64,000 nt of DNA from positions 1 through 64,000 of the IMG/VR virus record IMGVR_UViG_3300012936_000003; one strand, 5' to 3'. Made by a program: the position numbers and the translations under genes. Numbering within the stretch: the stretch's first letter is position 1; each line of letters opens with the position of its first letter. This document shows, piece by piece, positions 1,409-48,671 of this stretch. Below the pieces are notes generated by a model, which was given only the letters and a program-made list of their open reading frames with translations, was not told where the DNA came from and ran no database searches. This DNA comes from a virus.

Positions 1409-4400
1409 TTAGTGCCTAACCGATGCAAAGTTTTTTCTCTTTTCAATAGAAATTTGAGAATCTACCGCATCCTTCAAGCTCTCAAGGTGGGAGATAAGCA
1501 AGACCGTTTTAAAATTAGATTTAACCAAATCCAAGATCCTAATAAAGCCTTCCATGTTTTCTTCGTCTAATGCGGTGCCCGGTTCGTCCAGAATGAACAG
1601 ATCGCCCTTTGGCAAACTAGATACGTTTAGTAGGGCGAGGCGAATCGCCATAGCAGCAATAGTCTTCTCTGCACCTGAACCCATCTCCAATGGGCGAGCA
1701 TCATACTTGGGATGCTTGATGAAAATATCAAGTTTCTTTTCCTCGTTCTCAAGATACACTTCAAAATCTACAATATTAGCCAACACACTAGCGATTTCTT
1801 CGTTCAAGACCGGTAGCTTGTTTTTAATAATGTCCAAGCTAATGCCATTCGTGTGCATACAACTCATGAACAAGTCATACGCAGAGAAATCATCTCGTGC
1901 TTCCCGCAACTCAACCTGTTGTGACTCAAGATCTTCTTTCTTTTGCCCCAAAGAGCCGTTGTCTCGGTAGAGTTCCATGAGAGCAGAGTCACATTGGTCA
2001 ATTTCATCCTCAAATTTAGAAATATTTTTCAAAATCGTGCTGTTTTCAGAAACCAGACCCTCTAGATTCTCAATAACTTCTCTATTCTCCTCATACTCGG
2101 TTATTAGGCGCAAATTTTGCTCCAATTCGCTCTTGTGTTTGAGAATTTGATTCTTATTCTTAGCAATGTTCAGTTCCATCTTGCCGACCACGCTCTGAGC
2201 TTCTGTTTTCTTTTGTAACACCTGCGTGTGTTTACTAATGAAGCCAGAAACCCTCTCTGGTTCAAGGTTTTGAAGCGCCTGAGATGAATTTGTTCTATTA
2301 CGACGCATCTCGTTTAACTTGGTGCGTGTCAAACCCACCGTCTCAAGGGCGGCGAACGCATCTTTTATGAAACGACATTGAGGATATTGTTCGCCACAAG
2401 GCACCTGATCCAATAACTGGATTTTTCGTTCTTCAACCTTCAGGTAAGTCTCCACCTTGTTAATTTCCGAAATCAAATCTGACAGATCGTCGTTCATGTC
2501 TGTAATTAACTTTTGTTTTGACTCGTATTCTTCAATGTTTGACTCCGACAAAACAGCATCAATCTTGTTAATGAGTTCAACATTCGCCTTCTTGGTCTGC
2601 CCGTACCTCTTGTTTTCAGAATCAAGAGAAGAAATCTTAGATTCCAGACTCTCAATTTTGCTGCGGACCTTATCATCATCAATGATGGTCGCTGGACATG
2701 CTCCAATTTGTTCTTGCAATTCTAGAGAACGCTGCCTTGAGTCTGCAACCTGTTGTCTCAACACTGCACAACGATCTTTTTGTTCTACAATCTCCTGATT
2801 GTGCTCCTCAAGCAGTTGGGTCACTTGATCAATTTCTTCTGTAAAGTTAATATTTTCTAGTCGCTTGATTGCACCTCTTATATCTGAGGCATCGTCCTTC
2901 GCTAATTTAAACTTATCATCAAAAATCTCCAAGTCAAGAAATTTTGCTAAAATCTCTTTTCTCTTAGTAGACCCCTCGGAAATAAACGCAAGCGAACCTA
3001 GCTGGGTTGCCATTGAGGTTAAGAAGAAATCATCTATTGTCCCAAAATACTTACGAATGTTCTTGTCTGTTCCGTTCCTATCTAAACCATTTAAAGATTC
3101 CATCTCTCCCGTCACGCTGTTTACAGCCCAGAAGTTAAGGTCCGTCTTAGCTTCCAAAGACTCCACACCCTTCAACTTCTTAACGTATTTTTCGCAACGT
3201 CTCTCAACGTGAAGTATGTTGTCTCCGACTTCAATCTCCACCTTTCCACGACCCCAAGTACAATCTTGATTAATGGTGTTCAGGTTCTTGCGATTACCCT
3301 TTGACGTTGTATTGTAGAGGGTGAAAAGCAAACTATCAATGATTGAAGATTTACCAGAAAAGTTCTTGCCAAAGATTCCGATGATACCATTTAAATCTTC
3401 AAAATCAATTTTGTTTCCCTCTCCATAGTTGAACAGGTTATCCCACTCAAGTTTTCGGATACGCCAGTTGATGTTCCTCATTACCACTTCGGAGTCTTCA
3501 ACAATCTTATTGTACTTTTTGTTCAGTTCGTACACCCTGTTCAGTACATCGCTAGATGTATTGTAGTCTTCCAGATACTCCTTTATAAATTTCTCCTGTA
3601 CGGCAATGTCTCGGAGATCTTCTTGCACGAAGCTACCATTAATATCTACAGATCCCCGAACGTCGTTTGCTTTGTTTAGGAATGTAATTGATGAAGGATT
3701 AAATCTTTTCTTCGCTGCGTCAATCGCCCTCTTTAGTTTGGAAAGGGGAATACTGTAGTTTGACACGAGTCGCAGTCGTGCACCGTCTGGGATGGTTGCC
3801 TTGTTGGGGATCCTACCCGTCTTTGTCAATTGCAGAGTGACAAAAGGCTTTGGATTCTTCAAGACGTAATGCTCAACAGAGAAATCATCTTTGCCCTGAA
3901 TGTCCCAAAGCAAGAATCCCTTGTCGTCAGTTTCCCCATGGTTCTGTTGAATAGTGGAACCGGGATACCGAACACGACCTTCTCCATCAAGAATCTGATT
4001 GGTCTTGTGAATATCTCCCAACATTGCGTAATCAAAATCACTAAACACAGAAATGTCATGGTCGCCATGATCCATAACCCAGCCGGTGTCGGTCACAACA
4101 CCTGACACGGCTCCGTGGTAAAGAGCAATATTAATCTTGTCTGTATTTGTGGGCGCAACCCAGTTTTCTTCATCAAAAACACTGAGTACGTTTAGAACGA
4201 TGCCATCACCAATTTCAGTCTCGCCTGCATCCTTTAGCAAGTGAAGGTTGTCTTTCTGAAGCGCATCAATGATGGGGGTAATCGCATCTTGCCGACCAGA
4301 ATTCTTTAAGTTTCCGTCGTGGTTTCCGAGAATAATATATGTAGGTGCAATGTCGGCAAGATTCTTAAAGAAGCTCGCAGCCATCTCAACAAACTCTGGT

Positions 4401-4561
4401 GAGATTTGCGTCTTGGTGTGTGCAATATCTCCGCAGTGAACGATGTAATCTACATCTTTATCTCTCAAGATTTGATAAAGGCTTTCAAACGCTGCCCTGT
4501 ATTCTTCATGATACTTTAAATTTCGGATATGGGTATCCGCAATGTGTGCTACCTTAGCCAT
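1409..4561 (-). CDS. Mre11-Rad50 (SbcD-SbcC) fusion, nuclease plus SMC-type ATPase
   Basis: One 1050-residue chain carries both subunits of the DNA-end-processing complex. Residues 1-330 are an Mre11/SbcD calcineurin-like phosphoesterase: D9 and H11 (ADTH), D45 (CGDIAH), N80-H81 (GNHDG), H149 (YHG), D183/H185 (GDIHK). From about 363 follows Rad50/SbcC: Walker A 398-405 (GKNFSGKS), Q-loop Q520, coiled coil about 560-900, an ABC signature-like GSGAEK at 961-966, Walker B DLFILDE 987-993, D-loop (TALDE) and H1025. The hook carries C722-x6-C729 instead of the usual CxxC. T4 uses separate gp47 and gp46 for this role in recombination, replication and host DNA degradation. No frame interruption is visible, so the fusion looks genuine. 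A short inverted repeat (GGTTAG/CTAACC) overlaps the stop codon. Confidence 0.95.
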   Translation of the reverse strand: MAKVAHIADTHIRNLKYHEEYRAAFESLYQILRDKDVDYIVHCGDIAHTKTQISPEFVEMAASFFKNLADIAPTYIILGNHDGNLKNSGRQDAITPIIDALQKDNLHLLKDAGETEIGDGIVLNVLSVFDEENWVAPTNTDKINIALYHGAVSGVVTDTGWVMDHGDHDISVFSDFDYAMLGDIHKTNQILDGEGRVRYPGSTIQQNHGETDDKGFLLWDIQGKDDFSVEHYVLKNPKPFVTLQLTKTGRIPNKATIPDGARLRLVSNYSIPLSKLKRAIDAAKKRFNPSSITFLNKANDVRGSVDINGSFVQEDLRDIAVQEKFIKEYLEDYNTSSDVLNRVYELNKKYNKIVEDSEVVMRNINWRIRKLEWDNLFNYGEGNKIDFEDLNGIIGIFGKNFSGKSSIIDSLLFTLYNTTSKGNRKNLNTINQDCTWGRGKVEIEVGDNILHVERRCEKYVKKLKGVESLEAKTDLNFWAVNSVTGEMESLNGLDRNGTDKNIRKYFGTIDDFFLTSMATQLGSLAFISEGSTKRKEILAKFLDLEIFDDKFKLAKDDASDIRGAIKRLENINFTEEIDQVTQLLEEHNQEIVEQKDRCAVLRQQVADSRQRSLELQEQIGACPATIIDDDKVRSKIESLESKISSLDSENKRYGQTKKANVELINKIDAVLSESNIEEYESKQKLITDMNDDLSDLISEINKVETYLKVEERKIQLLDQVPCGEQYPQCRFIKDAFAALETVGLTRTKLNEMRRNRTNSSQALQNLEPERVSGFISKHTQVLQKKTEAQSVVGKMELNIAKNKNQILKHKSELEQNLRLITEYEENREVIENLEGLVSENSTILKNISKFEDEIDQCDSALMELYRDNGSLGQKKEDLESQQVELREARDDFSAYDLFMSCMHTNGISLDIIKNKLPVLNEEIASVLANIVDFEVYLENEEKKLDIFIKHPKYDARPLEMGSGAEKTIAAMAIRLALLNVSSLPKGDLFILDEPGTALDEENMEGFIRILDLVKSNFKTVLLISHLESLKDAVDSQISIEKRKNFASVRH

Positions 4562-4574
4562 GCAATCTCCTATT

Positions 4575-5522
4575 CTAAAAGAACATTTCTATTTTTTTTC
4601 TCTGCCAGTAACCTTGGTCAACTGGCACAGCCTTATCCTTTCTATCAGAAAATTCGCTTTTGCTCATTTCGCCAACATCAGAATAAGGGTTTATATTCAC
4701 TTTGTATAATTCTACATCATAATCTAAAAATTGTTTAATTATTTCTAACGCCTTCTTTTCAGCGTCCGCATCAAGCGCAAGAAAAACTGGTGTGTCGTTC
4801 TCAACCACTCGTCGCACAAGTGCCGATCCTTCTCTTAGGGAAGTCCCCAAGATTGGAACCGAGTTGCCAGCAACGATGGCATCAAATACGCCCTCAACTA
4901 TTATAAGGTCCGAGTCCCAATCTATATACAGATCGTTAAATACCAAATCCCTGCTGACAGGAGGAGCAAGATATTTGCGCCAATCACCGGTATAAGATCT
5001 TGCGATAAAATAGTCAACACCGCCATGCATATCAAACGAGGGAATTACAATCCTACCCTCATATTCTCCCGTTGGACAATAGCCAATCTTCCATCGTAAA
5101 ATATCCTCCTTGGAAACGCCACGCTTGTGTAGAAAATTTAACGCAGGGATCGCAGACCTCGGAAGTGTTGAGGATGTGAGCGTTTTGAAATCCTCTGGGA
5201 GTGTGACTTTTGCCTTCTCCTGTCCTGAAGCACCGAACAGCTTCTCCACCAACAAAGAGTCAAACGAAGAAAGTTCTACCTTTCCGCACAGCTTGTCCCA
5301 AGACTTTAGCTGTTGAAAGTTTCCATAACTTCTGACTACACGACGAACACTGCTGCCACGGTAATCGCAAATCCAGCACTTAAACTTGTCCTTCTCAACG
5401 TTGATTGATAGTTTGTTCTTGTGGTGATTGCACTTTGGACAGTGATACAGTCTCTCGGAACCAGACTTGAAAGAGTCTCCAAGTATGTCTTTTAAGATTT
5501 TTGTTTTTTCTCTAGATGACAC
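4575..5522 (-). CDS. DNA primase (CHC2 zinc finger plus TOPRIM)
   Basis: The 315-residue protein would make RNA primers for lagging-strand synthesis. The N-terminal zinc ribbon has C28/C31 (YHCPKC) and C49/C52 (FKCWIC). A TOPRIM domain follows, with the catalytic Glu at E210 (LIIVEGVFDA) and the acidic pair D251/D253 (LALDADAE). There is no helicase domain, as in T4 gp61-type or stand-alone primases. The start is a GTG at 5522, which overlaps the end of the upstream RuvC-like gene by 31 bases; the usual spacing from the start to the first Cys supports it. It sits directly upstream of the Mre11-Rad50 fusion in the transcript, forming a replication/recombination operon. Confidence 0.92.
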   Translation of the reverse strand: MSSREKTKILKDILGDSFKSGSERLYHCPKCNHHKNKLSINVEKDKFKCWICDYRGSSVRRVVRSYGNFQQLKSWDKLCGKVELSSFDSLLVEKLFGASGQEKAKVTLPEDFKTLTSSTLPRSAIPALNFLHKRGVSKEDILRWKIGYCPTGEYEGRIVIPSFDMHGGVDYFIARSYTGDWRKYLAPPVSRDLVFNDLYIDWDSDLIIVEGVFDAIVAGNSVPILGTSLREGSALVRRVVENDTPVFLALDADAEKKALEIIKQFLDYDVELYKVNINPYSDVGEMSKSEFSDRKDKAVPVDQGYWQRKKIEMFF

Positions 5523-6031
5523 CTAACACCCGCTTTTGCTATAATAATGCTGTCAGCACGATCATACGTTCCGGGAACGGGATTACCATGCTTAGTAACA
5601 TCATAACTGAAATCTGGTTCATTGTCAAGTAAAAAATTTAAAATATGTTGTTTAATATTTGTGGTCTTCGGTCTCTTTCCAACACCGCATAAAGATCTTG
5701 CCTCGTTTGCAGAGACAAATTCAGGGTTTACGCCTAGCGTGTCTTTAACTAACCATCCTACTATACCATTAAAACGAGCCAATGTCAAGATAGTTTTTGC
5801 AGAAGATTTTCCACGACTAATCCAGAGTGGTGACTCAATATAAACTTCTTCTATAGTATACTGTTCTCCCAACCCTGTCAAGAGTTTTTTTACTTCTTCT
5901 GCTTTCGCAAAAAGGTCAGGAAATTTTTTTTTGTTCTGAAGCCTCCAAGCCTCACAGTAAAGAACTTCTTCTTTTAGGTTGAGGACCGAAGCGCCTGTTA
6001 TTGATGTTGAAACATCTAACCCTAGTATCAT
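5492..6031 (-). CDS. RuvC-like Holliday-junction resolvase / RNase H-fold nuclease
   Basis: The 179-residue length and acidic-residue pattern fit the RuvC family: D6 in an N-terminal beta strand (MILGLDVSTSITG), E66 (VYIESPLW) and D157/D160 (YDRADS) near the C-terminus, the expected four-carboxylate two-metal centre. Family members cleave four-way junctions; in phages such an enzyme may resolve replicating DNA before packaging. A KRPKTTN segment (119-125) resembles the basic region of the family. Its ATG overlaps the stop of the upstream structural gene (TAATG) and its end overlaps the primase start, so it appears translationally coupled to both. It could also act as a branched-DNA debranching nuclease. 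Confidence 0.85.
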   Translation of the reverse strand: MILGLDVSTSITGASVLNLKEEVLYCEAWRLQNKKKFPDLFAKAEEVKKLLTGLGEQYTIEEVYIESPLWISRGKSSAKTILTLARFNGIVGWLVKDTLGVNPEFVSANEARSLCGVGKRPKTTNIKQHILNFLLDNEPDFSYDVTKHGNPVPGTYDRADSIIIAKAGVRCHLEKKQKS

Positions 6032-7290
6032 TAAAAATCCAATTTAAGTTTAAATGTAAATTCTCTGTCCTCTGTTTTCAGAATTGGCTTTGCCAGTTTG
6101 GCAATTGCAATAAGATTTTTCTTGTCGTCATAAATACCAATTTTAGAAATCCATGTCTGTTTCTTGAACTCCGGAGGAGGATCGTTGTAGGGAGAATACA
6201 CCGTATTCTTAATTTCAATATTGTCTCTCTCGGTGTAATTAATCTCTCCACTATAACTCATTCTAACACCTTCTTGTCCTTTTGTTAAATAAGTTGGGTT
6301 GTTTGAATGATTTAATTCGCCCTTCTTTGCATGGGCAAGCATCGTGATCGTAGGAATATAGTTTGTGCCACGCATCTTCAAACCGTAGCTTGAGTTGATA
6401 ACGGAAGTATTAGTTTCTTCAGGAACCCATTCAGGATCCTCGCAAACACCTGTCTCTGGATCACAATATCCAAGGGTTCCCCAATAAATCCACTTTGGAT
6501 TGTCCACCTGTGGATGATCTTCATCGTCAAGAACCTCGGGGCAGTATATGTACCTCTCCTCAATGTCATCGTCAAGCGACCAGTCACCAGTGAGGATAAT
6601 GAATCCTTCGTTGTATAGCGCCACACCTGCAACACGACCTAATCCATTCTCGCCTACCGTCTGGACAAGTTCCCCATTGCGGTTAACATCTTCTAGCCTT
6701 GCAACGAGAGAGCCATGAACGTAATAGTCCATCTGAATCGTTCCTCTCTCCACACAGGAACCATAGAAAATAGAAGGGATGCTGATGAGAGTCAGATCGT
6801 CTTTCATAAAATCTTTTTCCCCACCCTCAAAGGCAAAACAGGGACTCATCGTTTTATAGTAGTTTAGCGTATTCTTCAGGGCAGTTAATCTAGGTCTGTT
6901 TTTACCGCACACATCATAGAAGTCTCCATCTTCTGAAACGTACCGCTCCACAGAGATGGTGGTTGCCAAAGGATAGCTGCCACTCATAACGTCGCCATAC
7001 GCAAAGCTCTGGAATGCTGTCGTTGAAACCGTGCTAAATGACATTGCTGTTCCGTCTTTGGTAATAAACGGATAAATTAAATCTTCTTCTTTTCGGTCAA
7101 CATTGATTTCGTAAAGACTTAAAAACCCAGATGGAACATGTTTGACGTTTCCACCGTCGCCATGAACTTGCGGCTCGGGGATCTCACCGTTGTAATAGAT
7201 CTTTCTATTGTGAATTAAAAACTCAACATCTGGGTGAGTTTCTATTACGTTGTGAAAAATATCATTGCTCGTGAATTTGTAAAACGGCAT
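6031..7290 (-). CDS. Virion structural (tail/fibre-type) protein, paralogue of the next gene
   Basis: This 419-residue acidic protein has no enzymatic motif, signal peptide or membrane segment. Its C-terminal 50 residues (SKIGIYDDKKNLIAIAKLAK ... FKLKLDF) align by eye with the end of the 400-residue protein encoded at 7305-8507 (STVGLYSADNELLAVAKL ... LRVRLDY), so the two are paralogues. This ending resembles endings I associate with structural proteins of large marine myoviruses, but I could not search. It lies at the downstream end of the long structural block, 15 bases after its paralogue. Assignment as a virion protein is by context; attachment to tail or fibre is inference. Confidence 0.7.
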   Translation of the reverse strand: MPFYKFTSNDIFHNVIETHPDVEFLIHNRKIYYNGEIPEPQVHGDGGNVKHVPSGFLSLYEINVDRKEEDLIYPFITKDGTAMSFSTVSTTAFQSFAYGDVMSGSYPLATTISVERYVSEDGDFYDVCGKNRPRLTALKNTLNYYKTMSPCFAFEGGEKDFMKDDLTLISIPSIFYGSCVERGTIQMDYYVHGSLVARLEDVNRNGELVQTVGENGLGRVAGVALYNEGFIILTGDWSLDDDIEERYIYCPEVLDDEDHPQVDNPKWIYWGTLGYCDPETGVCEDPEWVPEETNTSVINSSYGLKMRGTNYIPTITMLAHAKKGELNHSNNPTYLTKGQEGVRMSYSGEINYTERDNIEIKNTVYSPYNDPPPEFKKQTWISKIGIYDDKKNLIAIAKLAKPILKTEDREFTFKLKLDF

Positions 7291-7304
7291 AACTGAAACT
7301 CCTC

Positions 7305-8507
7305 TTAGTAGTCCAGTCTCACCCTCAATACCATCTCGTTCGTTGGGTCTTTTCTCAAGACCTCTGAAAGTTTCGCAACAGCCAACAGTTCATTGTCAGC
7401 AGAATACAAGCCGACAGTAGAGATATACGAAACCGGTGCATCTTCAGTGTTTTCCTTAACACGAACCTTGCTGTCCTGTAGGTATGTAGGGTTTGAACTG
7501 TAGTTAAAGTCATTGTGGTTAATTCTACAGAAATAGATCGTAGAATTCAACTCGGTAGTGTTGTTGAACGCCAACCTTTCAATTCTTCTTCTAAGAGAGT
7601 CACATGCAGTTGGAATATCTTCTTGCTGAAGCAACTCGGTCACCCCAAGCGGAGCGCCCGCCTCATTAATATGCATGACAGGAGCTTCTGCTGCTGCACC
7701 AACACCATCATCAACTACAAACAGTTTGCCCTCTGGGCTGTCATCCGCATCGTACTTTTTGAAAATGTCTGCCGACAAAACAATAACACCTGCTTGGTAG
7801 TAGATCAGTCCGCATCTTTGATTAATATCTGAAGATTCATAATTAAAGGCTGGTTCATCTTCAGTCGGAGTACCGTCCTCCTCAAAGGTGATATGCTGTC
7901 TACACTTTAAGATTCCGTAATCACCTGCCGGTGAATTTACCCGGTAATCATTGGCAGCGCCTTCGTCGGAAATCATTAAAATTCTTCGCAACCCTTCACG
8001 CTGTGCCTCTTGCTCATACGCCTGACTTACGTCAAGATGAATGTGGCAAGAACCCTTTTTAATTTCGTCCTTGTTTAATAGTCTTGCAGCACTGATGATA
8101 AACACGTCATTTAGTTTTGCTCCGCCCTCTAGGATGTTGCCATCCTCATCAAACCTAGAGATGTTTCCTGATGTGTCGTGCCCGACAAGCACCTGCGCCA
8201 TCTGTTGATAAATTCTAAACTTCTTGGGTAGAGAAACGTCATCCTCTCCAACCTTGTCAGATACAGTCGTCAAACCCATGGTAAGATCAAAAATGTGGTT
8301 TGCTGAAGAACTTAGGTATGGATAATCATACACGCTCTGGAACATCCTGTGTGGATAATTCTTGATGTTGGTGTCTTCTTCGCTACCAACGGCAGGTTCT
8401 GCGTAGGTGCCGAAAAGAATTCCACCATGAACGGGAATTGCCTCATGGAGCAACGTCCGAGTCGTCGCAATGTCATCGTTCAAAAAAGTTTTAAATACTG
8501 TCGCCAT
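7305..8507 (-). CDS. Virion structural protein, paralogue of the neighbouring 419-residue protein
   Basis: The 400-residue product has a mixed beta-rich composition and no catalytic motif. The C-terminal segment STVGLYSADNELLAVAKLSE followed by a terminal LRVRLDY matches the end of the 419-residue neighbour, and both also share a short NHSNNPTYL / NYSSNPTYL motif about 60-70 residues from the end (SNPTYL-type). This indicates tandem duplication followed by divergence. It is flanked on both sides by genes of the same type at 15-base spacings, so all are probably made together late in infection. The exact position in the particle cannot be read from the sequence. Confidence 0.72.
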   Translation of the reverse strand: MATVFKTFLNDDIATTRTLLHEAIPVHGGILFGTYAEPAVGSEEDTNIKNYPHRMFQSVYDYPYLSSSANHIFDLTMGLTTVSDKVGEDDVSLPKKFRIYQQMAQVLVGHDTSGNISRFDEDGNILEGGAKLNDVFIISAARLLNKDEIKKGSCHIHLDVSQAYEQEAQREGLRRILMISDEGAANDYRVNSPAGDYGILKCRQHITFEEDGTPTEDEPAFNYESSDINQRCGLIYYQAGVIVLSADIFKKYDADDSPEGKLFVVDDGVGAAAEAPVMHINEAGAPLGVTELLQQEDIPTACDSLRRRIERLAFNNTTELNSTIYFCRINHNDFNYSSNPTYLQDSKVRVKENTEDAPVSYISTVGLYSADNELLAVAKLSEVLRKDPTNEMVLRVRLDY

Positions 8508-15695: not shown

Positions 15696-16849
15696 TAGTC
15701 TTTACACTCCCCATCGTCTTCTTCATAACTAACAATTGTCCCGCCATAGTTGCCGCCCGACGTAAGCCCTCTTGAGCCATAAATAATTTGTTCTGATGAC
15801 GGTCCTTCTTCTGGTCTTCTTCTCCTACTTCCACGGGAGCTTCCACGGGAGCTTCCACGGGAGCTTGTAACGTAAACATTTTCCGCTGGCTCTGTCTCAA
15901 CGATTTCAAGAACTCTTTCATCAATCTCATCATCAACCCAAATGTTAAACCAGTATTCAACATAACTAGCATCAATTTCAGGATTCTCGTCTGCTGGACC
16001 TCCCTCCGGGGTGTCTAAAAGAAACCCGTCCTTCATAAATTTCTTTTGCTCAATAAATGAAAGGGGATATAATTTTTCTCTAGTCTCCACACTGTCTTTC
16101 ATGGAAGGTGGCACGATGTTGTTTTGAAAGTCAACATCCTCAACGAGAAAAACTTCTATGTCAAAGTTTTCATTTAAAAAGTCAGAGTTCATCTCTCTAA
16201 CATCTATGAGTGCGTAATCCTCCTGAACAGATAAATAAGATCCGTCTTCGTATTGTTCTAGTGTAACTGACAAGTCACCTTCCGAACCCGGTCCATAAAT
16301 GTCACCCTGTTGTGGCAACCCTGTGAAACTGTTATCAGGTGGAAGATCAAACCACACACGTGTCTTGTAAGTAATAGGCTTCAGTTTTAGCTGTGGAATT
16401 TGCATAGTCGGTTGTGCCCCTGACAAATGGTCAACTCTCTCAGCAGCCTCTCCTTTTAGAAAATTTATTTTCCAAGAAGGAGCCTTGCTTATTCCAAGCG
16501 ATGAGTTGCCCAAAGGCGATGATAGCGAATAGTGTTTATCTGCCGTTGGTTGAATTATTCTGTCTTGCAGATCTACTTTACCAGAAACCAAGGCTGCTGT
16601 CAACCTTTTTACTTCTTTTTCTCGGCTGCTAAAAACATATTGTGTTTTAAGACGAACGGATTCTTCTTCAATTCTGTTTTGAGTTTCAATACCCATCTCG
16701 GAAATATCTCCGTATTCAGCGTCATAAAGAATATCATCGTCAAAAAATGCGTACATTTCAGGAGAGAACTTTCCTCTTGACAAAAGATGTTTTCCATATT
16801 GTGTTAACTGAATCTCAATAACTTCTTCTTTATTGTCAAAAAAACTCAT
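15695..16849 (-). CDS. Virion structural protein with Ser-Arg-Gly-Ser repeats at the C-terminus
   Basis: The 384-residue protein begins MSFFDNKEEVIEIQLTQYGK and then reads LLSRGKFSPEMYAFFDDDIL, an N-terminus that I associate with structural proteins of large marine myoviruses. It is strongly acidic. Near the C-terminus (about residues 325-345) a short low-complexity tract SSRGSSRGSSRGSRRRR is encoded by three exact 12-base repeats and is followed by an acidic end. The start and stop both overlap neighbours as TAATG, between the 4146-residue giant and the 1180-residue protein. No enzymatic motif is visible; a tail/baseplate connector role is inference. Confidence 0.75.
   Translation of the reverse strand: MSFFDNKEEVIEIQLTQYGKHLLSRGKFSPEMYAFFDDDILYDAEYGDISEMGIETQNRIEEESVRLKTQYVFSSREKEVKRLTAALVSGKVDLQDRIIQPTADKHYSLSSPLGNSSLGISKAPSWKINFLKGEAAERVDHLSGAQPTMQIPQLKLKPITYKTRVWFDLPPDNSFTGLPQQGDIYGPGSEGDLSVTLEQYEDGSYLSVQEDYALIDVREMNSDFLNENFDIEVFLVEDVDFQNNIVPPSMKDSVETREKLYPLSFIEQKKFMKDGFLLDTPEGGPADENPEIDASYVEYWFNIWVDDEIDERVLEIVETEPAENVYVTSSRGSSRGSSRGSRRRRPEEGPSSEQIIYGSRGLTSGGNYGGTIVSYEEDDGECKD
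15828..15863. repeat. Three tandem exact 12-base repeats inside a structural gene
   Basis: The unit CTTCCACGGGAG (plus strand) is present three times without spacing and encodes a repeated Ser-Arg-Gly-Ser motif on the minus strand. It is in frame (12 bases, four codons), so copy number could change by slippage without breaking the protein. Confidence 0.9.
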
Positions 16850-19800
16850 TATTCATCTCCCTCCCAATTTGTTAAACCAACTGCCTGTATATTTCTTGTT
16901 ACCGCAGCCTGCGAGTGAGCGTCAGAAATAATCTTTTGTTTCTCAACTTCGCTTAGAATCGGATCTAGTCTCAAATTATCAGCAGACAACTTTGGAGTAA
17001 CACTGATTCCACCCTTAACCCTGCACAGTTCTACTAGACTACAGAAGTCATACGGCCAGTTGTAACTATAATCTGGCTTGAGATCTGTTCCAAATGTGAA
17101 ATCAAACTTAAACCTGTCATCATCCACAGAGTCCGCAGTCATCTCCCAGTAGTTCGTCTTCGCTTTCTTCTTCGCTCTAAACACGATCCATCGGACGTTT
17201 TCTGGAACTTTCTTGCCTTCAAAGAAGTTAACCTCGTTAAGTTCATGTTGGATAATCTCTGTGTCTTGTTCTGCAACCTTTGCTCTCTGTGGCATTAAAC
17301 CTTGCCAAATGTTAGACAGATCATCAGAATTCAACTCGTCACTAAATTCAAAAACATACGTTACAAATGGAGATATTTGGCGATATTTTAAGAAATCGTA
17401 TTGAGGAGGCATGTTGTATTTTTGCAGCTTCTTAATCATTTCTGAAACCGATGTTTCTGGAATGTCTGCTGCTACATTGTATGTCTTACCCTGCACAATT
17501 GCAGGCTCACCGGCTGCGACGTTAGCAAACGTCTCTGCGAAAAGCTGTTCGCTAATCTTGAAAAAGTTTCTTCCACCAACCTGAGTCGTAGACGCAACAT
17601 CGTCTGCGATGATTGGGTTATCCACGAAAGGAATCATGATTACTGCTTCAGAGATTTCCTTGCTCGCTGCCACTTCACCAATTCTAGATTTAGTTGCAGT
17701 GAAACCACACACGTCAATCAATGAACCGACCGTTTGAATACAATCAATAATCTTTCTAGTGCTAGAAATTCTGTAAAAATCTCTGTTTTCCTGAAGTTCT
17801 GGTTCAAACCGATCTCTCGTCCAATCAAGCGCAGAGGTCTCTGTCAGATAACGAATACCCAATCTTCCATTAGGGTTCTTAATTGAATCCTGATTAACAC
17901 TCAGGCTAACCTTTGGTGTCTCATTGACCTTCTTCGCACCGGTCGGAGCACGAGAATAGTCATATTCAATCTGTACAATAGCCTGTAAAACTGTTTGTAG
18001 TTTATTATATTCAGGATATTTTTTAAGTTGTTCTTCACCCGCCTTCTTCGCACTACCTCTCACTTTTCCGTTTTGGTAGTCGTTCGGGTGTACCCACACA
18101 ACAGATGCTTTCCATGGGAAAGACTTAGGGAATCTCTTATAGAGATAGTTGATGTGGTATTCAATCGCATTGGCAACGTCAGACGCAAGCGGTACAGTTG
18201 CGCCGCTTTCATTCCAAACGGAAAACATATCCGTCTGCCACTTCTCTGCCTCAAGATACGCCTCAATATCATATTGACCAGACATTTTTGAAGGCTGGTT
18301 TCCTCCCAGCTTCTCACTTGGAGAAGTCAAAGATGTTCTAATTTTCGCCGCTGAAGAAAAAGGAGTTCTCCGTTCTTCCAGTTCTGAATCCAAGAATCCG
18401 AGATCAAGGTAGGCGCTAACATCCTTGTCAATAGCTTCTTGACCCCATGGAGAAATTTGTTCAGCATTGGTCGGCTGACCAATCGTGACTGCCTCAATTC
18501 CACCGAAAGGATCCTCTAGTGTAATTACATTTTCGTGCATAAGCCTCACGTCGTTTTGAATACCCAAGGCAACTGCAAAAATTTCTTCATTTGTAATCTT
18601 ACAAGTCAAGGGTTGATTCGGCTTCTCGTGTCGCTTGAAAGATTCTTCCAAGGAGATAAAGATACCTTCTTGATTTGATGGAATGGTTCCATAGCCACCC
18701 CAAATACCTGTTCCACACGGTTGGTCTGAGTCTGCAATATAATTAAGGTTGCTCTCAGACTTGAAGTTGAATGTTGGACACTCAAATCTTGGAGAGATTA
18801 CCCACACACCCGTACCTCCTGCCACATCGTCCTCCACTCGTTGGGGAGCCAGTCGGGCAACACCGTCTGGGCTGTAATCATAGGCTGTGTTGATTGCTGC
18901 GAAAGAAGTCTTTTTCTCGTTTGCCTTACCGTCAAACTTAATACAAGCCTCCATCGGCATTCTTGCCTCATAAGCTGGTACTTTCTTCCAAGCATAGTCT
19001 TGAATAGTTCTTAGTAGTTCACCTCCGGAGACCTGTTCAGAAGAAGATCTGGACGAGAATAAGCTATCCATTTCCTCGTTAATATAATCAATCTCAAGGT
19101 TATTGAGAATTTCTTCCAAGGTTGGCTGTCCATCTCTTTGTGCCACAAACTTCAATCTAGCCTTAGCTCGTCCGTAAAAATACGGAGGAACGTATGCTGC
19201 CTGTGCTGGGTCTGCTGATGGCATGAAAGACACCTCTTTGTCGTTCATTTCAGCATCTGTAAGATACTGCATCGGTGGACCAAAATATCTACCGTGAGTG
19301 GTAAATTCGTTACCAGAAGAATCAGCACGACCAATTCTCAATCGTTCACCGTCATGCGGGCTGTAGACCATATCAAAATTATTAGTTTTATACAGATGAA
19401 CATCCATGTAATAAGTCCATCCCGCCTTGACTGTTTTAAATTTATTTTCAGGAGACGATGCGAACGTTGTGAACTTACCACCTCTCAAGAAGAAGTTCGG
19501 AACCTCTGCCAAGAAGTTGTTCATAGCCATCTCGTATAGCGGGTTCTGGTTACCTGTCCACTCAAAATATGGATATTCCGGCTGAACATCGGCTTCTTCT
19601 ACATTGTTGTAATACGACGGAGCAAGAAAAAATATTTTTGATTGTTCTGCACTGTTTGTCTGTGGGATGTAAGAACCCAAAGACACTAGAGCCTCAAATG
19701 GAATTCTAAAACTAGGAGTCTTCGTCAACATCCTCGTACTGGTTGAAATATAACTTCTGGTCTTCACCTCTCTAGTGTACGTCAAGTTATTGATTACTCT

Positions 19801-22800
19801 TACTAGCGTGTTTTTAGTCTCATTCATCTTGCTTATTTGTTGAAGCATCACTTCTGTCGTGGCGCTAGTAATTAAGGAGTCCGGAAGAACTCTACCTAAA
19901 AGAGAATCACCCGTCAGTGGAGTCCTTGCAGCCGTGTTTGGAACAAACTCAGGACAGGAATAGGCTTCTCTGAATCTTTGTAGAAGTTGAGGCGAGCCAA
20001 GCTCATAGCCTCCATCTTCCGCAAATCTTTCATACTCTTGTTGTGTACATTCGTTCTGTACTTGATCCGAGAGTGCTGTAAGTTCATCGCCAAAAATTCC
20101 GATGTTTCTGTTGTAAGATTCTCTGGTGAAAGCTGTTCTTTCTTCTTCTGTTCGTACTCGCCCAATAGATTCAGCCATACTCAAGTCTCTTGCCACAGCG
20201 CCCTGAATTACATTAAAGGCTGGTGTTCTAATAAAATCTTTCAACACGAGATAATCATCGGTGTTAATCTCGGGGATCACCAAAGGAGGTTGCTCAAGTT
20301 TATAATAGGTTTCCAAGTCTGACTGCTGATTACCTGCGAAAGCAGCCCAGTCCACCGCCATGCCAGATTTAATTGCGTTGAATAGAATGCCCGGTGCAAA
20401 GAAAGGTTGCAAAGCTGCCTGCTCTGTACGGGCTCGTGAAAATCTCTGGTTGTCGTTTTCGCCCGTCACGTGATCTTTGACAACACTATCATAAAATAGT
20501 GACCCCAACTGAACCGCTCTTTGCGAAGGATAAAATCCATTGTATGGTAAAAGTTTTTTAATGGCGCTAACTTCTAGGCGCATCATTAAATCTGTACCCT
20601 CTTGTTTTAATGCCTTGTGGTCTTCTCTAATTTTCTCTATGTGGCTAATCTTATCTGTATGTGAATAACACTTAAAGAAGTCTTCTTTCCAAACATATTC
20701 CTCGCATCTGGGCGATTCATGGAAAGGTACTCCGATTCTCCACCAACCAATTAATTCAGCACAAGCTGAATTTGCGTCTTGCTCAATCTGCTGGTTTCCA
20801 ATCGTATCGGCGGCGGTGCTAATAAGTTCCGTAATATCCGTACTATCTTCTTCCGGTGAGGATCCATCTACAACATCTGCTATCTCAGTAATGTCTTCCA
20901 ACTGTGATAATTCTTCTTCCGCTTCAATGACAACTTGGGCGGGCGTTTGGAGCGACGAGAATGCTGATTGAAAGCCCTCAACTTCGTTGGGAGAAATTCT
21001 TGGAATACCCAAGGGGTTTCCATTGTTCCCTAATCCTGTTGTAATAATTCCACTGGTTACTTGTTCTTGTAACTGAACAGCAGCTTGTGCCTGAGAAGCG
21101 AGATCAGATCCAAGACCTGTAAGGTCAAAAGGTTGTAAGTCTGCTGCCTCTACAATATTGAACTGTAATTTAAAGCCTCTAAATTCCTCGCTCTGCACAC
21201 CTTCGTCTACTTTTTCTTTAATCTTACATGCATTCACAAAATCTCGCCACTCTGCAAAAACCTCATTGGGGTTTTCACACTGGTTTTCATAAATTATTTC
21301 CGCTAAAGTGCATCTAACGTCGCTCGCAAAAGCACTAACAAACGTACTTCCGGCTGGGGCGTTATCCTCACCAGAAGTCGGCTCAGCAGGATTTTTCTTT
21401 CCATAATATTCCTCAAAGTCCACATCAAAAAACCACTGATTTTCAACAGAGTTGTGAGGCGTGTTTCGCACCTGTGATTCATCCCACGCAGCGTTAACAA
21501 TGCCGGGGTTTCCTCGGTAAAGAACTAAATCAGTAGCCTTTCCATTGAAAGTCCCGAGTTTCATAGTTGAGAAGGCAGCAGGGAAAAAAGCATCATAAAA
21601 CAATGAACCATCATGAGTTCTTACGTTCTCTGCGGGATTTATAATCTTTGCAGCCTGAAGACACTCTTTATCTTGCGTTGATAAAACACGAACACCGTTA
21701 ACGAAAAGCAGAACCTTGTGTCTGTCTGTTGAAGAACCCTCGGTGACATAACCACCCACATAACAAACTGAAATGTTTGACCAACCATCATTCATTATCT
21801 TGGCATAGTCATCAAACTCACCAAAATAAAGTTTGTTTCCAACATTATCTTCCCAGACAATCAATGTCTTTTCGTGATCTAGGTAGAGCCTACTCTCCAC
21901 AATCCTTCTAGCAGGCAAGGTTTGAAACTTTTTATTTACATCCATGAGCTTTTGAATCAACGATTTCTTAGAATTCATAAGAGGCGTGATTCTATTCATT
22001 TCCTGCGTGAGAGTATCAATGCTTCTATCTAGGCTTCTACGAGTGGCGCTGTTCATAGCTGTAATTAATCTTCTTTGAGCACGTCTAGAAGAAAGAGCTT
22101 CCCATTGACGATCATATTGTCTTAAAGACTCAAGCTCCACACGAAGATCATAGACGGTGCCATCAACCTCCAACAGTTGAGATTCAGGCTCGCCCGATGC
22201 AATGGTTCCTGACGTAAACTCGTAAATAACCGACTTTCCGGTAGAGCCCCTGAAGTTAAACCAACATGACGTAAAAACAACACTGTCCCACAAACTTAAA
22301 ATTTTGTTTGCATTACCTGAAGTTTCTACCGCAGGATTCCAATAAGGGAGAGCCTTTTGTGCTGGCGATAACGGCAAGCCCTTTGCAAAGGCGAAACCTT
22401 CTTTGGAGACGCTACGCAAGTTTTGATTTTCAATAAATTTTGCAAAGTCAAGTTGGAAGGTCATGCCTTTGACAAATGTTCCTACCGGATATTCTTCTCC
22501 GCACTTCCAATTGCCCTTGATAATATTGGTATCTAAAGAAGCCGGTGGTTCAATGTTTACATAACTATCTAAAATCCTGTGAGCCTCGCCGTAGTCGTTA
22601 TCTTCTTTGTCAAGAAGTTCCAGACCAGAAACCTTACCCGGTGCGAAGTCGTCATAACCGTTGGCAAAGTTTGGCTGAATTAGTGTGCCGGTATCCAAGT
22701 CAAGAGTTTCCTTCATGCTCGTTGTACCATCCCAAGAGAAATAATAACCTGCACCTCTGGTGGATTCATACCTTTGACCACTAAACTCTAGTTCCGGGTG

Positions 22801-25800
22801 TACACCGGGTAGCTCTAAAATTCTTTTGTTTTCTGCCAAGAAGTTTCCGGCGTTGTCATTAATATAAAACTCTAGGTGAGACGAAACATTGTACTCTGGT
22901 GTTAAAGTGTAGTTTTGCCCGATAAGACGAATGTCTTTTGAATATTCATCATAGTCGTCGTGCCAAGGAGTATTGTTTGAAATCTCCGCAGCTTTCCATT
23001 TCCAAGCATACTCACGACCTTCGCCATCAGGAGCGTGCGGGTTGTGGATAAATTGAAGTCTAGGTCGTGGAGCCATCCAAACCTCTAGACCTTTCTCCAT
23101 GTCATCTTTTTCTTGTGGCTGTTGACCCTGAGAAGTGTAGCCTGAATACTGTGGAAGACCTGCCCAAGCAAGATCGCCTCGTAGGGCAATATTACCACCG
23201 TCAGAAAAGTCTCCGGAAAGAAGTCTTTCTTGCGGAGCGTATTCTAGAGCCCAGACAGAACTTCTTCTGACCGGCTCTCCAAAAGCGTTTCTGCCTGCAA
23301 ATCTTTCCTCGTTATAACTGTAGCGTGTTCTCTCACGCAACCCATCAGCAGCCCAAAAAGTTCTAATCATGGATGAGCGGCGATCATAGCCATTTTGTCC
23401 AGACTCCTCCTTGTAAAATCTTCTTCTTCTGGTTTTGTCTAGAGTTGCATTTCTATGCTTCGGAAAAATATATTCCGAGTAAATCATCTCAAACATTTCC
23501 GGCGTGTTTCTTTCATCAGATGCGTATTTCTCTACTAAAACATCATAAATTTGTTTAGCCGTCTTTTTTAATCCCATTCTCTTGTCAAGATATGGGTTTG
23601 AGAACACCTCAACATTGTTACTGTAAGAGTGTACAACCACGCCCGAACTTGGAGAACCCGGAAACTGCATCTTGTGCCTCATCGGAAGGTTCCACGAAAC
23701 CGCTGGTTCTACATAACTTTGGGCAGTCTGCGCTCTAGTCTCTCTAAACGTTACAAATTTATTAACGCCCTGAACTCTTATTTCTTTAGGCAGATCAACC
23801 ATTGAGAAAATATTATTTTTTCTCTGATTCACAACAATCTTGTTTTCAAAGTTTCTAATCTGCTTCCAAGAGGGGTGCTGATATGGACCATCTCTGTGAA
23901 GGAGCATATCGTTCAAAGAAAGACCGTCTTCGTTGCTCGGATCAAGAATAGCAAACGTGTCTTCGCTGTTAATATCCAGCCCACGAATAGCAGACATACT
24001 GGAAATCTCGGAACAGCCTCTGTCAAACGATTCGTCCACAACGTCTTCGTAAGTTTTCGGGTGATGCCCACTCTCATCATCATAAGAAATAAAGGTGTTT
24101 AAGAATGGAAACCCTTCTTCAATGATCACTTGCCCCTGTTTCTTCTTAACCACGCTCTTTCCATACGCAGAAACCTCACCCACAAACTCGGTCGGACTGG
24201 TGGCGGTCTCTGGGTGGTATGCCACAGCATTCGGATACTGTGTTGCGTACCCCCATGGACATACAGTGTAGCGCACTGCTTCGCCTTCAACTTCTTCAAA
24301 AATTTCTCTACGTGTGGAAGAATTAATCCAAGAATACTGATAACCACTTCTTGGCAACTGGTGTGTGACCCAGAAATTATCATGCGTTTCTTTACAGCGA
24401 TAGTCCGTTAAAATTCTTCTTGCGTATTCTTCTTCATCACATTCACAGCACGGATCAACTTCTTCTGGAATTTCATTCTCAAATGCATCAATGTGACTAA
24501 ACGCTTCGGGTCTATATGCCGTATTCCTATGGTTCTTGTGATAGTTCGCCTCGCAAAAGACTTCCAAGTCTCCCGGAGATTCGCAGTCATCTACAGGTCT
24601 TCCCCTGTAGTAGCTTCTATAGCCCCAACGCTTTGTGTGGTAGGTTAACCAGTTAGCCAGATGTGTTCGCACATCAAGGTTTCTAAAGTTCAAGGAGTTA
24701 TAAACTGCAAATTCCTCAGCCTCAACATCCATCATACCTCGTGAAAGAGTGTCTGGACCGCCGGGTGAGGAAAATCTTTCTACAAAGATGTGTTCATTTC
24801 TACCTCTGTCCGGTAGTGTGAAATCATACATTCCGACGACATAATCAGACTCCGTAGAGTATGTTGACATTTCATCCAGTCCTTCTTGCTCAACTAACCA
24901 CCTGTTGTTCAAACTTCTCCCGGAGGTTTGAACTACCTCGTAATCAAATTGATAGTTTCCATAAGAAGACTTAATATTTCTAATGTTTACAGGTCTCTTT
25001 GCCTTTTCGTCTCTATAATATGTCGCCTTGGGTTGTTCATCTGACAGTGGATAGAAGGTTCCTGACTCAAAGTTCCACGCTTCTGGTCTTTCTCCTTCAT
25101 CAAGATCTCTAGGGTGAAGGAACGGGAAGACGTGCCTGCTTTGAAGACCTCCGACGTTGACACTAGGGAAGATACCCTGAAGTGGAACATCTTTGTCTTC
25201 ACCGTAAGTGTCAGAGTGGTTGCTGTTCCAGTAAGTCTCTCCTGTCAAAATATTTTCGTTTAGTTCGTAAAGTGAGTAGCTGCTGCCGTTGCTGCCGCCT
25301 GCCTCAATATTTAAACGTTTATTAAATAAAGGGTTCCCTCTCAATTCTTCATCAAGACAAACGGAATTTGCGGCTTGAGTTGTTTCTCTAACTTCCACAA
25401 CCCCACGGTCTGCCAATTCTGCCCTGACGTAATCAATTTTCTTGTTCTTTTTATTATTTACACCACCATGAATAGACTTCTGGACTTCCATGCCAAACCG
25501 GTACGGTGTTGACAAACTTCTCAACGCAAACGTCTGTCCATCGTAAGATCTTGTAATCCCGCCCACCTCGTGAGCGAGCTTCTTCTCAATGTAGTCTCCG
25601 CTATTCTTAGTCGTCGCCACATGCAAGATTTGTGCCCGTGCATCATCTACGTCTTCGTCGCCAGTTTGGAGCACTCCGTCTCGTTCAGCACGTTCTTTCC
25701 ACCACAAGCACTTTTGTGCTTCGTCTTCTTCCATGGAAGCATGACCAAACTTCCAATTGTAAAGCATCTCATTAATACCCAGAACTGCCGTCTCGGGTGG

Positions 25801-28800
25801 CTTCTGCTTCATCTCCAATGTCGGGAACTTCGTCCAATACTTGTTTCTCTCTAGAACGTGGCTTTCAATCATCGTCCTCATATCATCAGAAAAATTAGCG
25901 GAGGCTGGAATCAACTGTTTGATCATCTCGCTGATGGAGTTGTCAATCCATTTATAAAATTGAATATATTTTTCTACTCTTGGCGCTTCTTCAAATCTCT
26001 GGAAGAATAGTTGTCGTAGTTTATTTAAGTTCTTGTATTCCATCCTGTATCTGTTTACAGGCTCGCCGATCAAATTGTTGAAAGTTTTAATTCCAGCAAA
26101 AGCGTGAACAATCTCTTGAGAAATTGCCTGATACATGCTCTTTTCTACTGCCCAAAAATAATTCACGGGGCGAATGTTTTTTACAAAACGGTCGTCGTCT
26201 TGAGTCAGAAGCTGAATCGTGTCAGTTGAACCAATGATCTCCGGAAGATTCTGTTTTGCAGCGAAAAGAAAATTTTTGTCCACTACGTGGCGATCTTCAG
26301 GGTAGTAATAATCTCCCTTACCCGTGTGCTGTCTCTTTACAGTGTTTCCAATCCACCCGTACCTTCCGGTTGGGGCAGCTTCTTCGTTTGAGCCGATAGA
26401 AACATCGTCAACGTAGAAAAACGAGTCAGACAAAATATCCATAATACCGTCTACGCCGTCGGACACGCTTGACAAAGTTACCGTCGCAAAGTCCCAGTAA
26501 AGACACAGTGTGTCAATTTGCGGAACTCTAGGTCCGACACTCTGTTGCTCAAAATAAGCAGACTTGTAAGGATCTCTAACACCATAATTGTCAGGATCCT
26601 GTGCATGATACTTGATAGTCTCATTGTCCAAGTAATCTTGCCAGTATCTAACTTCACCGATTTTAACATCCGACTGGTTTACCGTGCCCTCAGAGTTATC
26701 GTTGGTGTCTCTATACTCTGCACCCAAGAACAATCGCTTGTTAGCGTTAAGTGCACTCTTTGCTGCTGCTGCGTCAAGTTCTGCTTCAAATAAAAATTCT
26801 TCTTGTGTCTGATCTAGAATGGTTGAAATACCGTAGAACTCTAAAAAGTATTTTACGTTCTCATCAGACTTGTATACAAGATCTGGTCTCTTGTCTGTTC
26901 TGACCCTAACCGCAAAGTTCCATCTGGTGTTGTCATAAACATCATGGAAGAATTCAGTCTCAAACACACCTTCGTGGTATTCATTGTCTGCGTTTGGGGC
27001 GAATCCAAAGCCACGAACATCAAGTCTGAACTTAGCCTTCGGGCTTCTGTCTTTTTCTTTAATTGACACAACCCTGAAACCAAAATCAGGAGCATCAACC
27101 CATGTTAAATCTTCTTGTGCGTCTTTCGCCTGATGCATACCGAAGATAGAACTAGGTCTCTCGTCCGTGAAACCGAAATCCATTTGATAATAGTTCGGGT
27201 GATCAATCGGCAACTTCTTAGGGAAGATGACAGTTGTCTGCATCGTGAACGGAATAAAATCTAAACCTCCGTCGTCAGTACCTGCAATGTAAGATACACT
27301 GTGTGGATTGTCAGGCTCAAGCGTCTGATACACGGTTGAGTCATGCCTGTCAACATCGTTGAAATCAAGAAAGTTTTTCTTGACAGACACAGATCTATAT
27401 GAATCTTTTAACCTATGTGTTACGCCGTCGCCATACAAATTAATCTTAATAAGCTCGTCTCCAACACCGAAGCACCGCAGAAGGTTTCTGAAAGACTTTT
27501 CAGTGCCCTTTGCCTTGTAAATGCCGACAATGTTGTTATACACGTTTTGATAAATAAGGTTCTTAACGTTGTGAAGTTTTTCTTCAAAGACACGTTCTTC
27601 GTTCCTGTTGGAAAGCGCCTCAAGAATTGTCGTGTCTACAAAAATTTCTGGTGCTACAAAACCCACCGACTCAAGCAAGTGTTTGGCAAACGGCAATGGC
27701 TTCTCGCCGTCTTGAACATAATGTGTATTTGTAATTGACGGTAGCGCCTCAATCTGCAAGTGTAGCGTGTCAAAGTAGCTTGAAATAATCTGGCTTAAAC
27801 CTAGTAGTCCCTGTGTTCCTTCTTCGTCAGCAGTCGTAATCCACTCTGGCATGGTGTTATATACTGCCGAGTTGTTTGTCATGTCGTGAGAATTACCCTC
27901 AAGCCTTTTTTCTTCCATTAATTCCTGAACGCTTGGGTGGGTTCTATAAACAATAGGATCCTTGTACTCTGTGTTGTTTACTCCCGGCTTCTCATCAATA
28001 GCCGAGCCGGAATCTCGGACGAGCAAAGAATAGTTTACAATAGAACCGTTTGACACACGACCGGAGTAATCCAAAACCTGAACATCAAAAGGACTAATTT
28101 TTTCTGAATTGTAAGTTCCCTCGTTAAATTTATAGTATACACCGAGGTCTGTGTTTGGCTCATCGGAGTTAGCGCCGCCGTGGACCTGAGTGAACCAGTT
28201 TCTACCAATTTGTTCTGAAGTCCTCACAGACTTCCAGAAGCGAAACTCATCATAACTCGCACGTGCTGAGGCGAAGCCGTAAAAATTTTCTTCGGACGCA
28301 GGGTCAGTCTTGTATTGTAGGGCACCAAGGGTCGCTGTCAGGTGATTTGTTTCTCCGACAAACGAACCTACGACTGTGCCGTCAGAAACCTCGTCAACCA
28401 TCTCCCCGTTAATATACAACCTAAAGACGATGGCGTCATCAGCATTAAACGCAGAAACAGAAAAATGATTCCACGAATTTAAATTTAGACTGCTCGGTAA
28501 CACCTCTCTGCTTCCGATGGCAACATCTGTGGCACCAGCAGAGCCAGAAACGTAAGTAACGTTTACGAGATTCTTGTCGGAATCTTTGTCCTCTGGCATT
28601 TGTACCAAAAATCTACAATACTGTTCAGCATCAATGTCTCTGTTGTTCCAAAGATCAAACAAACAGATACTACCATCTATATCAGCACGTTCTTCATCTA
28701 GTTTAAACCAGAACTCAACAGTGTTCCCGAGAGTGCCATCGCAGAACAGGTTTGATTCCCTCTGCATCTCTGGATTCCAGATGTTGCTCTTTCCAAGACC

Positions 28801-45988: not shown

Positions 45989-46194
45989 TAAGACTCGTCC
46001 GTCTCAGTAAGAACCACCGATGGTGCTTGTGCTTTTACCGTTGGTGGGTTCGTCACTACGAGTTCTGAAGCATCTGGCTCCGAATCAAAAGCAAAGTTCA
46101 TATCCCGAAGAACAGGAACAATGTCGCTCTGCTCCATTAGTGACTTTTGTAGTGCCATCATAAGGGCACCAATAGCTTGATTAGACAATTTCAT
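45988..46194 (-). CDS. Small conserved-looking phage protein, unknown function
   Basis: The product has 68 residues: a helical start (MKLSNQAIGALMMALQKSLM) and then an acidic, Pro/Val-rich tail (VVTNPPTVKAQAPSVVLTE). I have an impression of similar short proteins in large marine myoviruses, but no function is known to me and I could not search. The start and stop overlap the neighbours by one base each, so it is clearly translated within the operon. No metal, membrane or DNA-binding motif is visible. Confidence 0.75.
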   Translation of the reverse strand: MKLSNQAIGALMMALQKSLMEQSDIVPVLRDMNFAFDSEPDASELVVTNPPTVKAQAPSVVLTETDES

Positions 46195-47402
46195 TACAAT
46201 ACCTCCATAATTGAATTAAATAATTTTTGTCCTTGTTCACCTTCTTGAAAAGATGATACAATATGTTTTTGTAACTTCTTGGCGTTCTTTTGAGATTGAA
46301 TATCTCCATTGCGAACAGAACGCATCTTGAATTTTAAATCTTCCAAATCAACATAACACCAGTTTGTACCCTTTTCAATTACCCCATTCCAGACTGCCTC
46401 ATCTTGCACTGGCAAAACCTTATGTTCCACCCCAACGATGTGAGACTTTTCTTTCTTAGAGTTCTTTGCAGGCTTAAACGAAGTGAAATCCGTATAACCA
46501 CTCCACTCGGGAGCAATAATTTGCACCCCTGATGCCGCTGCTTCAAAGATTGGTAGCCCGAAGCCTTCTCCATGAGATGTACTCACATATGCGGAGATTG
46601 CGTCATCAGAATATAGTGACCTCATTTGACCATCAGTCAAATTTCCATGAATTAGGTGAATTTTACACTTTCTATCTGGGAAGTTGTCTAACAAACTCTT
46701 GATTGCCGACTTAGTGTTTTCCCTATCCTTTAGAGAATTGTTCTTAATATTGAGCTTGACAACATAACCAACATCAGAATCATTATGAAACTCCTCAAGG
46801 AAAGCAATGAGTGCTGTTTCAATGTTCTTTCGTGGACTCACTTGCGCCACTGTCAAGAAATTAAAATCGGTCGTGACGTACTTCTCAAACTGTGGAATTT
46901 CTTCTGACTGAACGTTTCTATACGGAAACGACACAACATCAATGTTTGTGTTTGCAGAAATTTCTCTCTCCTCTCCAAACGGATCTTTAAGAAATGTCTT
47001 CGCCTGAAGGAAACCATTTTTTGAATGTTGGGATGGGACAATAATCTTGTCTACCAAGTGCGTTCCCCGGATCCAAGAGTCAGAAATTCTGTCTGTCTCA
47101 ATGCCAGCCGTGATGCCGATGTTTTTCTCACAGATTCGGACCCACTCATTTGGAACTGTAATCTGGATTGACGCATCTGCATTTAAAGAATTACCTGCAT
47201 CAATGGTTTTTAGGAGGAGAGAATCTACCCATTGTCTCTCCTCATCATCTTCAAACTTCCAGCTAGTCGCACCCCAAGGAGTGTTGATAAGATAAATGTC
47301 CACTTTGTCTTCATTCGCCCTTAGAGAGCGCAAAACGAATCGTGCATGTTCACCATACCCAGAACGGGAAAGAACCGGACCTCTTACAATAATTTTTTTC
47401 AT
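46194..47402 (-). CDS. Glycosyltransferase, GT-B fold (GT4-like)
   Basis: The 402-residue protein starts MKKIIVRGPVLSRSGYGEHA, a Gly-rich N-terminal loop typical of GT-B glycosyltransferases. The C-terminal nucleotide-sugar half has FNFLTVAQVSPRKNIETALI, AYVSTSHGEGFGLPIFEAAA (the E-x7-E-type motif region) and SGVQIIAPEWSGYTDF, all hallmarks of family GT4. It would transfer a sugar from a nucleotide donor. Overlapping ATGA junction with the second glycosyltransferase upstream shows that both are made together. Targets could be hydroxymethylated or otherwise modified phage DNA, virion proteins or host surface polysaccharide; no base-modification gene is visible in this window. Confidence 0.9.
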   Translation of the reverse strand: MKKIIVRGPVLSRSGYGEHARFVLRSLRANEDKVDIYLINTPWGATSWKFEDDEERQWVDSLLLKTIDAGNSLNADASIQITVPNEWVRICEKNIGITAGIETDRISDSWIRGTHLVDKIIVPSQHSKNGFLQAKTFLKDPFGEEREISANTNIDVVSFPYRNVQSEEIPQFEKYVTTDFNFLTVAQVSPRKNIETALIAFLEEFHNDSDVGYVVKLNIKNNSLKDRENTKSAIKSLLDNFPDRKCKIHLIHGNLTDGQMRSLYSDDAISAYVSTSHGEGFGLPIFEAAASGVQIIAPEWSGYTDFTSFKPAKNSKKEKSHIVGVEHKVLPVQDEAVWNGVIEKGTNWCYVDLEDLKFKMRSVRNGDIQSQKNAKKLQKHIVSSFQEGEQGQKLFNSIMEVL

Positions 47403-48670: not shown

Positions 48671-48671
48671 T

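Follow-up and report, generated by a model that had tools for sequence, protein, structure and literature searches.

A probable marine phage SbcD-SbcC (Mre11-Rad50) fusion in a single chain and the variation of its hook tip

The fused gene and its relatives

The locus at positions 1409-4561 of the 64,000-nt stretch of viral DNA analyzed here (the window), which is part of a 103.8-kb virus record, raises the question of whether SbcD/Mre11 and SbcC/Rad50 are truly encoded as one chain and, if so, how such a gene relates to the fusions and separate subunits already known. The minus strand carries a 1050-codon ORF running from an ATG at 4561 to a stop at 1409 with no internal stop codon, and a Shine-Dalgarno-like AGGAG (4571-4567) was found 5 nt before the ATG. 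The earlier note on this DNA, which gave no strand, had described an uninterrupted Mre11-Rad50 fusion frame of 1050 residues, and this was borne out by the ORF itself and by Pfam and PHROG analyses. In Pfam, the calcineurin-type phosphoesterase domain (Metallophos) matched residues 3-157, AAA_23 matched residues 370-591, and SMC_N extended to residue 1043, while in PHROG the SbcD family was found at residues 1-703 and the SbcC family at residues 317-1048. Since the PHROG SbcD profile, with 989 positions, covers residues 1-703, this family probably already includes fused members. The 1050-aa frame contains a complete SbcD/Mre11 phosphoesterase and a complete SbcC/Rad50 ATPase, and we estimate a probability of about 0.88 that its product is a single-chain SbcD-SbcC fusion, a nuclease processing DNA ends that is encoded by a marine tailed phage and belongs to the type found in Mimivirus R555 and in marine phage metagenomes. 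In the 103.8-kb record, which may be a fragment, phrog_77 and phrog_100 each matched only once, and no second or separate SbcC or SbcD was found elsewhere in it; RecA/UvsX searches of the same possibly partial record by PF00154 and phrog_97 gave no match.

Fused homologues, whose search the earlier note had proposed as a check, proved to be numerous. The full-length query recovered 80 loci, all of them fused. Because such a query could favour fusions, the scan was repeated with residues 1-340 alone, and the 80 marine viral loci recovered by this nuclease-only query comprised 74 fused genes, 3 fused genes cut by a contig end, 1 gene interrupted towards the end of the ATPase, and 2 partial loci with the nuclease alone; separate complete SbcD and SbcC genes were present in none of the 80. 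Moreover, an ATPase-only scan yielded 79 further loci; 78 of these are fused, and the remaining one lacks a match to the nuclease. The loci of the three scans overlap, and the non-redundant set consisted of 162 fused proteins, a few of them from genome assemblies.

Several of the loci examined presented peculiarities of their own. The Xanthomonas phage phiXF1 (L092, 3863-6718) encodes a 951-aa fused protein annotated as 'hypothetical protein'. In the 484-kb phage LR756508.1 (L083, 3950-8175), a separate ORF of 305 aa (4671-5588) splits the Mre11-Rad50 gene immediately past GDIHK; this ORF is possibly a homing nuclease, and its similarity to TnsA-like endonucleases is weak (Pfam PF08722, 27.2 bits, cut-off 26.5). 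A WOR-3 MAG 'chromosome' (L121, CP070664.1) carries a phage segment between N runs, with structural-like ORFs, a RuvC-like gene, a primase, and a fused gene cut at an N run, and it looks like a chimeric scaffold. Finally, in a Bacteroidales MAG contig (L128) an SbcD-like gene of 277 aa stands alone; its motif reads GHIH, primase-like and RuvC-like genes lie nearby, and the stretch fetched around it gave no SbcC match.

Mre11/Rad50 fusions have been known since 2011, when Yoshida, Claverie and Ogata (PMC3175470) reported thirteen of them, distributed among Mimivirus, plasmids, bacteria, eukaryotes, and a Bacillus phage, as well as others in marine viral metagenomes. The abundant marine homologues were argued to be viral, many of them probably from phages, and primases were observed on the same metagenomic scaffolds as the fusions (Yoshida et al. 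2011, PMC3175470). The fusion is common in marine viruses and was already described in this group, which the earlier note had itself named as grounds for refuting its observation. What the window gene brings is mainly a confirmation and extension of the 2011 report: in a large lineage of marine phages, the fused form is the usual one. Less to be expected was the variation of the hook tip among close relatives.

Domains and motifs

The AlphaFold2 model of the 1050-aa protein reached a mean pLDDT of 80.9 and a pTM of 0.49, and because of this low pTM the relative placement of the domains is unreliable. The Mre11/SbcD phosphoesterase and capping domain (residues 1-296; 3674-4561, minus strand, as are all the following features of the gene) was delimited by fold match and conserved residues, with Z scores of 24-25 to SbcD/Mre11 structures, and presents the nuclease residues D9, H11, D45, H48, N80, H81, H149, D183, and H185. 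The Rad50 N-terminal ATPase lobe (residues 365-544; 2930-3469), supported by Pfam, AlphaFold2, fold match, and conserved residues, carries the Walker A motif at 398-406 and the Q-loop Gln520. It is followed by an ascending coiled-coil arm (residues 545-719; 2405-2929) and, after the tip, by a descending arm (residues 730-902; 1856-2374), both defined by AlphaFold2. The C-terminal ATPase lobe (residues 903-1050; 1412-1855), identified by fold match and conserved residues, contains the signature S962-G963-E965, the Walker B residues D992/E993, the D-loop D999, and the H-loop H1025. Residues 364-1050 of the model matched M. jannaschii Rad50 with Z 31.1. The best viral fold match to the whole protein was a Tupanvirus protein with 22% identity, and the best full-length viral matches, all to proteins of fusion length, came from giant viruses and from phages of Tenacibaculum and Listeria.

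The catalytic residues were strongly conserved across the 162 non-redundant relatives: N80, H149, D183, H185, G403, K404, Q520, S962, G963, E965, D992, E993, D999, and H1025 were invariant, and D9, H11, D45, H48, and H81 nearly so. The motifs of both the phosphoesterase and the ABC ATPase, all of which the earlier note had placed in one frame, are in fact present, except that motif V reads GDIH instead of the canonical GHIH. Asp183 occupies the position of P. furiosus Mre11 His206 in 162/162 relatives, and the same His206-to-Asp change was reported in Mimivirus R555 (Yoshida et al. 2011, PMC3175470). Histidine is found at motif V in T4 gp47 and most other separate phage SbcD proteins examined, whereas the separate SbcD of Vibrio phage PG07 has Asp, so that Asp at this position also occurs outside fusions. 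The substitution could alter metal use.

The junction between the subunits

The region between the two halves, which the earlier note had read as a linker near residues 330-365, is for the most part a predicted helix-loop-helix (residues 319-356; 3494-3607), with AlphaFold2 helices at 319-333 and 337-356 and a pLDDT of 85-94 over the block. A linker does exist between the second helix and the first Rad50 strand (365-374), and it is reduced to about 8 residues, 357-364 (3470-3493). The helix-loop-helix was assigned as the counterpart of the Rad50-binding domain of Mre11 on the basis of the model, of its conserved length, and of its alignment with the C-termini of separate phage SbcD proteins. 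The earlier suggestion that fusion may make the Rad50-binding helix dispensable is not supported by these observations, and a loss of the Rad50-binding helices was rejected. Prediction and conservation indicate that the window protein retains the Mre11 helix-loop-helix followed by a short linker, as expected of a viral fusion of this type. Likewise, according to Yoshida et al. (2011, PMC3175470), the published fusions keep a region matching the capping and helix-loop-helix domains of Mre11, and in the T. maritima complex 9-12 linker residues would be enough to span a distance of 28 Å.

The source record being a metagenomic virus contig, it could be argued that the single frame arose by an assembly or sequencing error in which a stop or a frameshift was lost near nt 3500. 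However, the same unbroken frame occurs in independent contigs, and 154 of the 162 non-redundant relatives have exactly 52 residues in the span 317-368; given the independent fused contigs and this near-constant junction length, such an error is ruled out for practical purposes. A different objection concerns stoichiometry, which the earlier note had considered fixed at 1:1 and which does follow by construction from a single-chain fusion. A free Rad50 subunit might also be made, either by proteolysis or by an internal start at Met361, whose ATG at 3481 lies just ahead of the first Rad50 strand. Nevertheless, no clear Shine-Dalgarno sequence precedes Met361, and this residue is not conserved, Ser and Ala being the commonest at that position. 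The internal start was rejected because of this lack of conservation, and a free subunit from either source was judged very improbable.

The hook tip

The Rad50 hook motif is CXXC according to the literature, but the tip of the window protein, VPCGEQYPQC (residues 720-729; 2375-2404; defined from the sequence, its relatives, and AlphaFold2), presents Cys722-X6-Cys729. No match of the protein to the Pfam Rad50_zn_hook model was obtained at E<=1, and the same model also missed a CXXC relative (L012). Among the 162 fusions, 102 tips were CX6C, 14 CX7C, 41 CX2C, and 5 of other kinds. CPxC tips were observed in T4, P-HM1, Cr30, phiN3, a Bacillus phage, and PG07, and the separate SbcC of a Moorella phage presented a CX7C tip, so the long-spacing variant is not confined to fusions. 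A literature search with limited coverage of subscription journals returned no paper describing a CX6C Rad50 hook; a study of divergent SMC proteins from the ocean deals with another SMC group, which has no hinge.

The distribution of tip classes was followed on a tree built without the coil, from the heads of the nuclease and the ATPase alone. At least 14 tip-class changes were counted with CX6C and CX7C pooled, and the starred branches alone force 9 changes for CX2C; the classes that changed on this tree were CX6C, CX7C, CX2C, VPCGPDC, and GCKC. Such changes were observed in relatives including L006/L012, L015/L028, L200/L204, and L164/L167, in some cases between proteins whose heads are 85-97% identical. 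For example, L012 (CX2C) and L006 (CX6C) are 86-96% identical in nuclease and heads, whereas the coil and tip of L012 are closest to those of L028 (CX2C). Similarly, L164 and L167 are 86-99% identical except at residues 651-765, where identity falls to 40-58%, and the same-class control L164/L165 presented no such drop. The simplest reading, not a proven one, is that coil and tip were exchanged by recombination. Coils evolve fast even between same-class pairs, which weighs against proof, and a silent-site test of recombination against fast amino-acid change was mostly saturated, with only pairs such as L165/L167 hinting at a segment of different history.

These patterns lead us to suggest, tentatively and at somewhat less than even odds, that the hook is an exchangeable cassette, with CX6/7C replacing CXXC in most marine members and recombination swapping the tips, perhaps thereby setting pairing. 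The CX6C tip may bind zinc or set pairing specificity, and tip class would perhaps direct pairing of phage protein with phage protein, and not with that of the host or of a co-infecting phage. The swapping of hook cassettes may also be functional; if so, sister pairs with near-identical heads and different hooks would open to testing the long-standing question of the role of the Rad50 hook and its pairing specificity.

Origin, genomic context and role

Whether this lineage shares its fusion with all others was considered by means of a 30-sequence tree, in which a fully supported branch divides the T4-type separate genes from all fusions except that of phiXF1. The possibility that fusion arose more than once, the window lineage being one of several independently fused, is about evenly balanced: the fused gene of phiXF1 groups with separate-gene phages and is perhaps an independent fusion, and recurrent fusion was already proposed in 2011 (Yoshida et al. 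2011, PMC3175470), but a single fused clade was not rejected on the 30-sequence tree (p-AU 0.464), every other fused sequence lies on the same side of the supported branch, and long branches make the position of phiXF1 unsure. As to the role of the protein, a main function in conflict, such as the degradation of host DNA or Lamassu-like action against plasmids or competitors, would agree with a PADLOC match to LmuB (E 3e-25) over the ATPase part and with the participation of T4 gp46/47 in host-DNA degradation, as annotated in database records. LmuB is itself a Rad50-like SMC protein, so the match is expected from superfamily membership, and the defence-system reading drawn from it was rejected as superfamily similarity. 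Moreover, the neighbours are replication and recombination genes. A DnaG-type primase gene (4575-5522, minus strand; PHROG 47, E 3.4e-36) lies directly upstream of the fusion gene, and a RuvC-like Holliday junction resolvase gene (5492-6031, minus strand; PHROG 159, E 5.3e-07) lies upstream of the primase. Both are conserved neighbours: the primase was upstream in 101 of the 130 non-redundant relatives with enough upstream DNA, and both genes were present in 75; in the 484-kb phage LR756508, RuvC, primase, and a divergent Mre11-Rad50 gene follow in the same order. That these neighbours are retained speaks for a role in the replication and recombination of phage DNA, and a predominantly conflict-related function is improbable.

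Elsewhere in the window, two very long ORFs occur on the minus strand, at 16849-29289 (4146 codons) and 33046-39885 (2279 codons). Two adjacent ORFs at 6031-8507, 419 and 400 aa long, have a C-terminal motif in common (SNNPTYL/SSNPTYL) and are perhaps paralogous structural proteins, while two adjacent glycosyltransferase-like genes (PHROG 2170) are placed at 46194-48727 and a PhoH-like gene at 50725-52074.

Proposed mechanism

An ATP-dependent nuclease activity is predicted for the fusion. From homology and structure prediction, two chains would pair into the usual (Mre11)2(Rad50)2 machine, in which the helix-loop-helix (319-356) would dock on a coiled-coil base, probably that of its own chain since the linker is short. 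By analogy with Mre11-Rad50, the paired heads would bind and hydrolyze ATP and thereby gate the access of DNA ends to the nuclease, and the long arms may be joined at their Cys-X6-Cys tips, which would stand in for the CXXC zinc hook. As in the case of T4 gp46/gp47, the enzyme would resect the ends of phage DNA and so serve repair and recombination-dependent replication. For structural studies, a complex contained in one chain also makes a convenient construct.

Comparison with known systems

The structures of E. coli SbcCD and of archaeal Mre11-Rad50 (6s85, 7yzo, 3av0, 5dny) superpose well on the heads and nuclease of the window protein but are formed by separate chains. T4 gp47/gp46 belong to the same subunit families, and the C-terminus of gp47 aligns with the helix-loop-helix region; unlike the window, T4 encodes them as two genes with 46.1 and 46.2 between them, and they present His at motif V, a CPTC hook, and a shorter coiled coil (560-aa gp46). 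The fusion of Microcystis phage Mel-JY01 (WWT39521.1) is a full-length protein of 1066 aa with 31% identity over 99% of the query and a DNA primase-like gene just upstream; it differs by its CXXC-type tip, HEYDPKCKHC. The Mimivirus R555 type and its marine homologues, by their description, share with the window protein the domain order, the His206-to-Asp change, the capping and helix-loop-helix domains, and the short linker, although R555, set beside it here by published description, has 1351 aa against 1050. The marine homologues of Yoshida et al. (2011) further resemble the window in the primase genes on their scaffolds and in their abundance in marine viral fractions.
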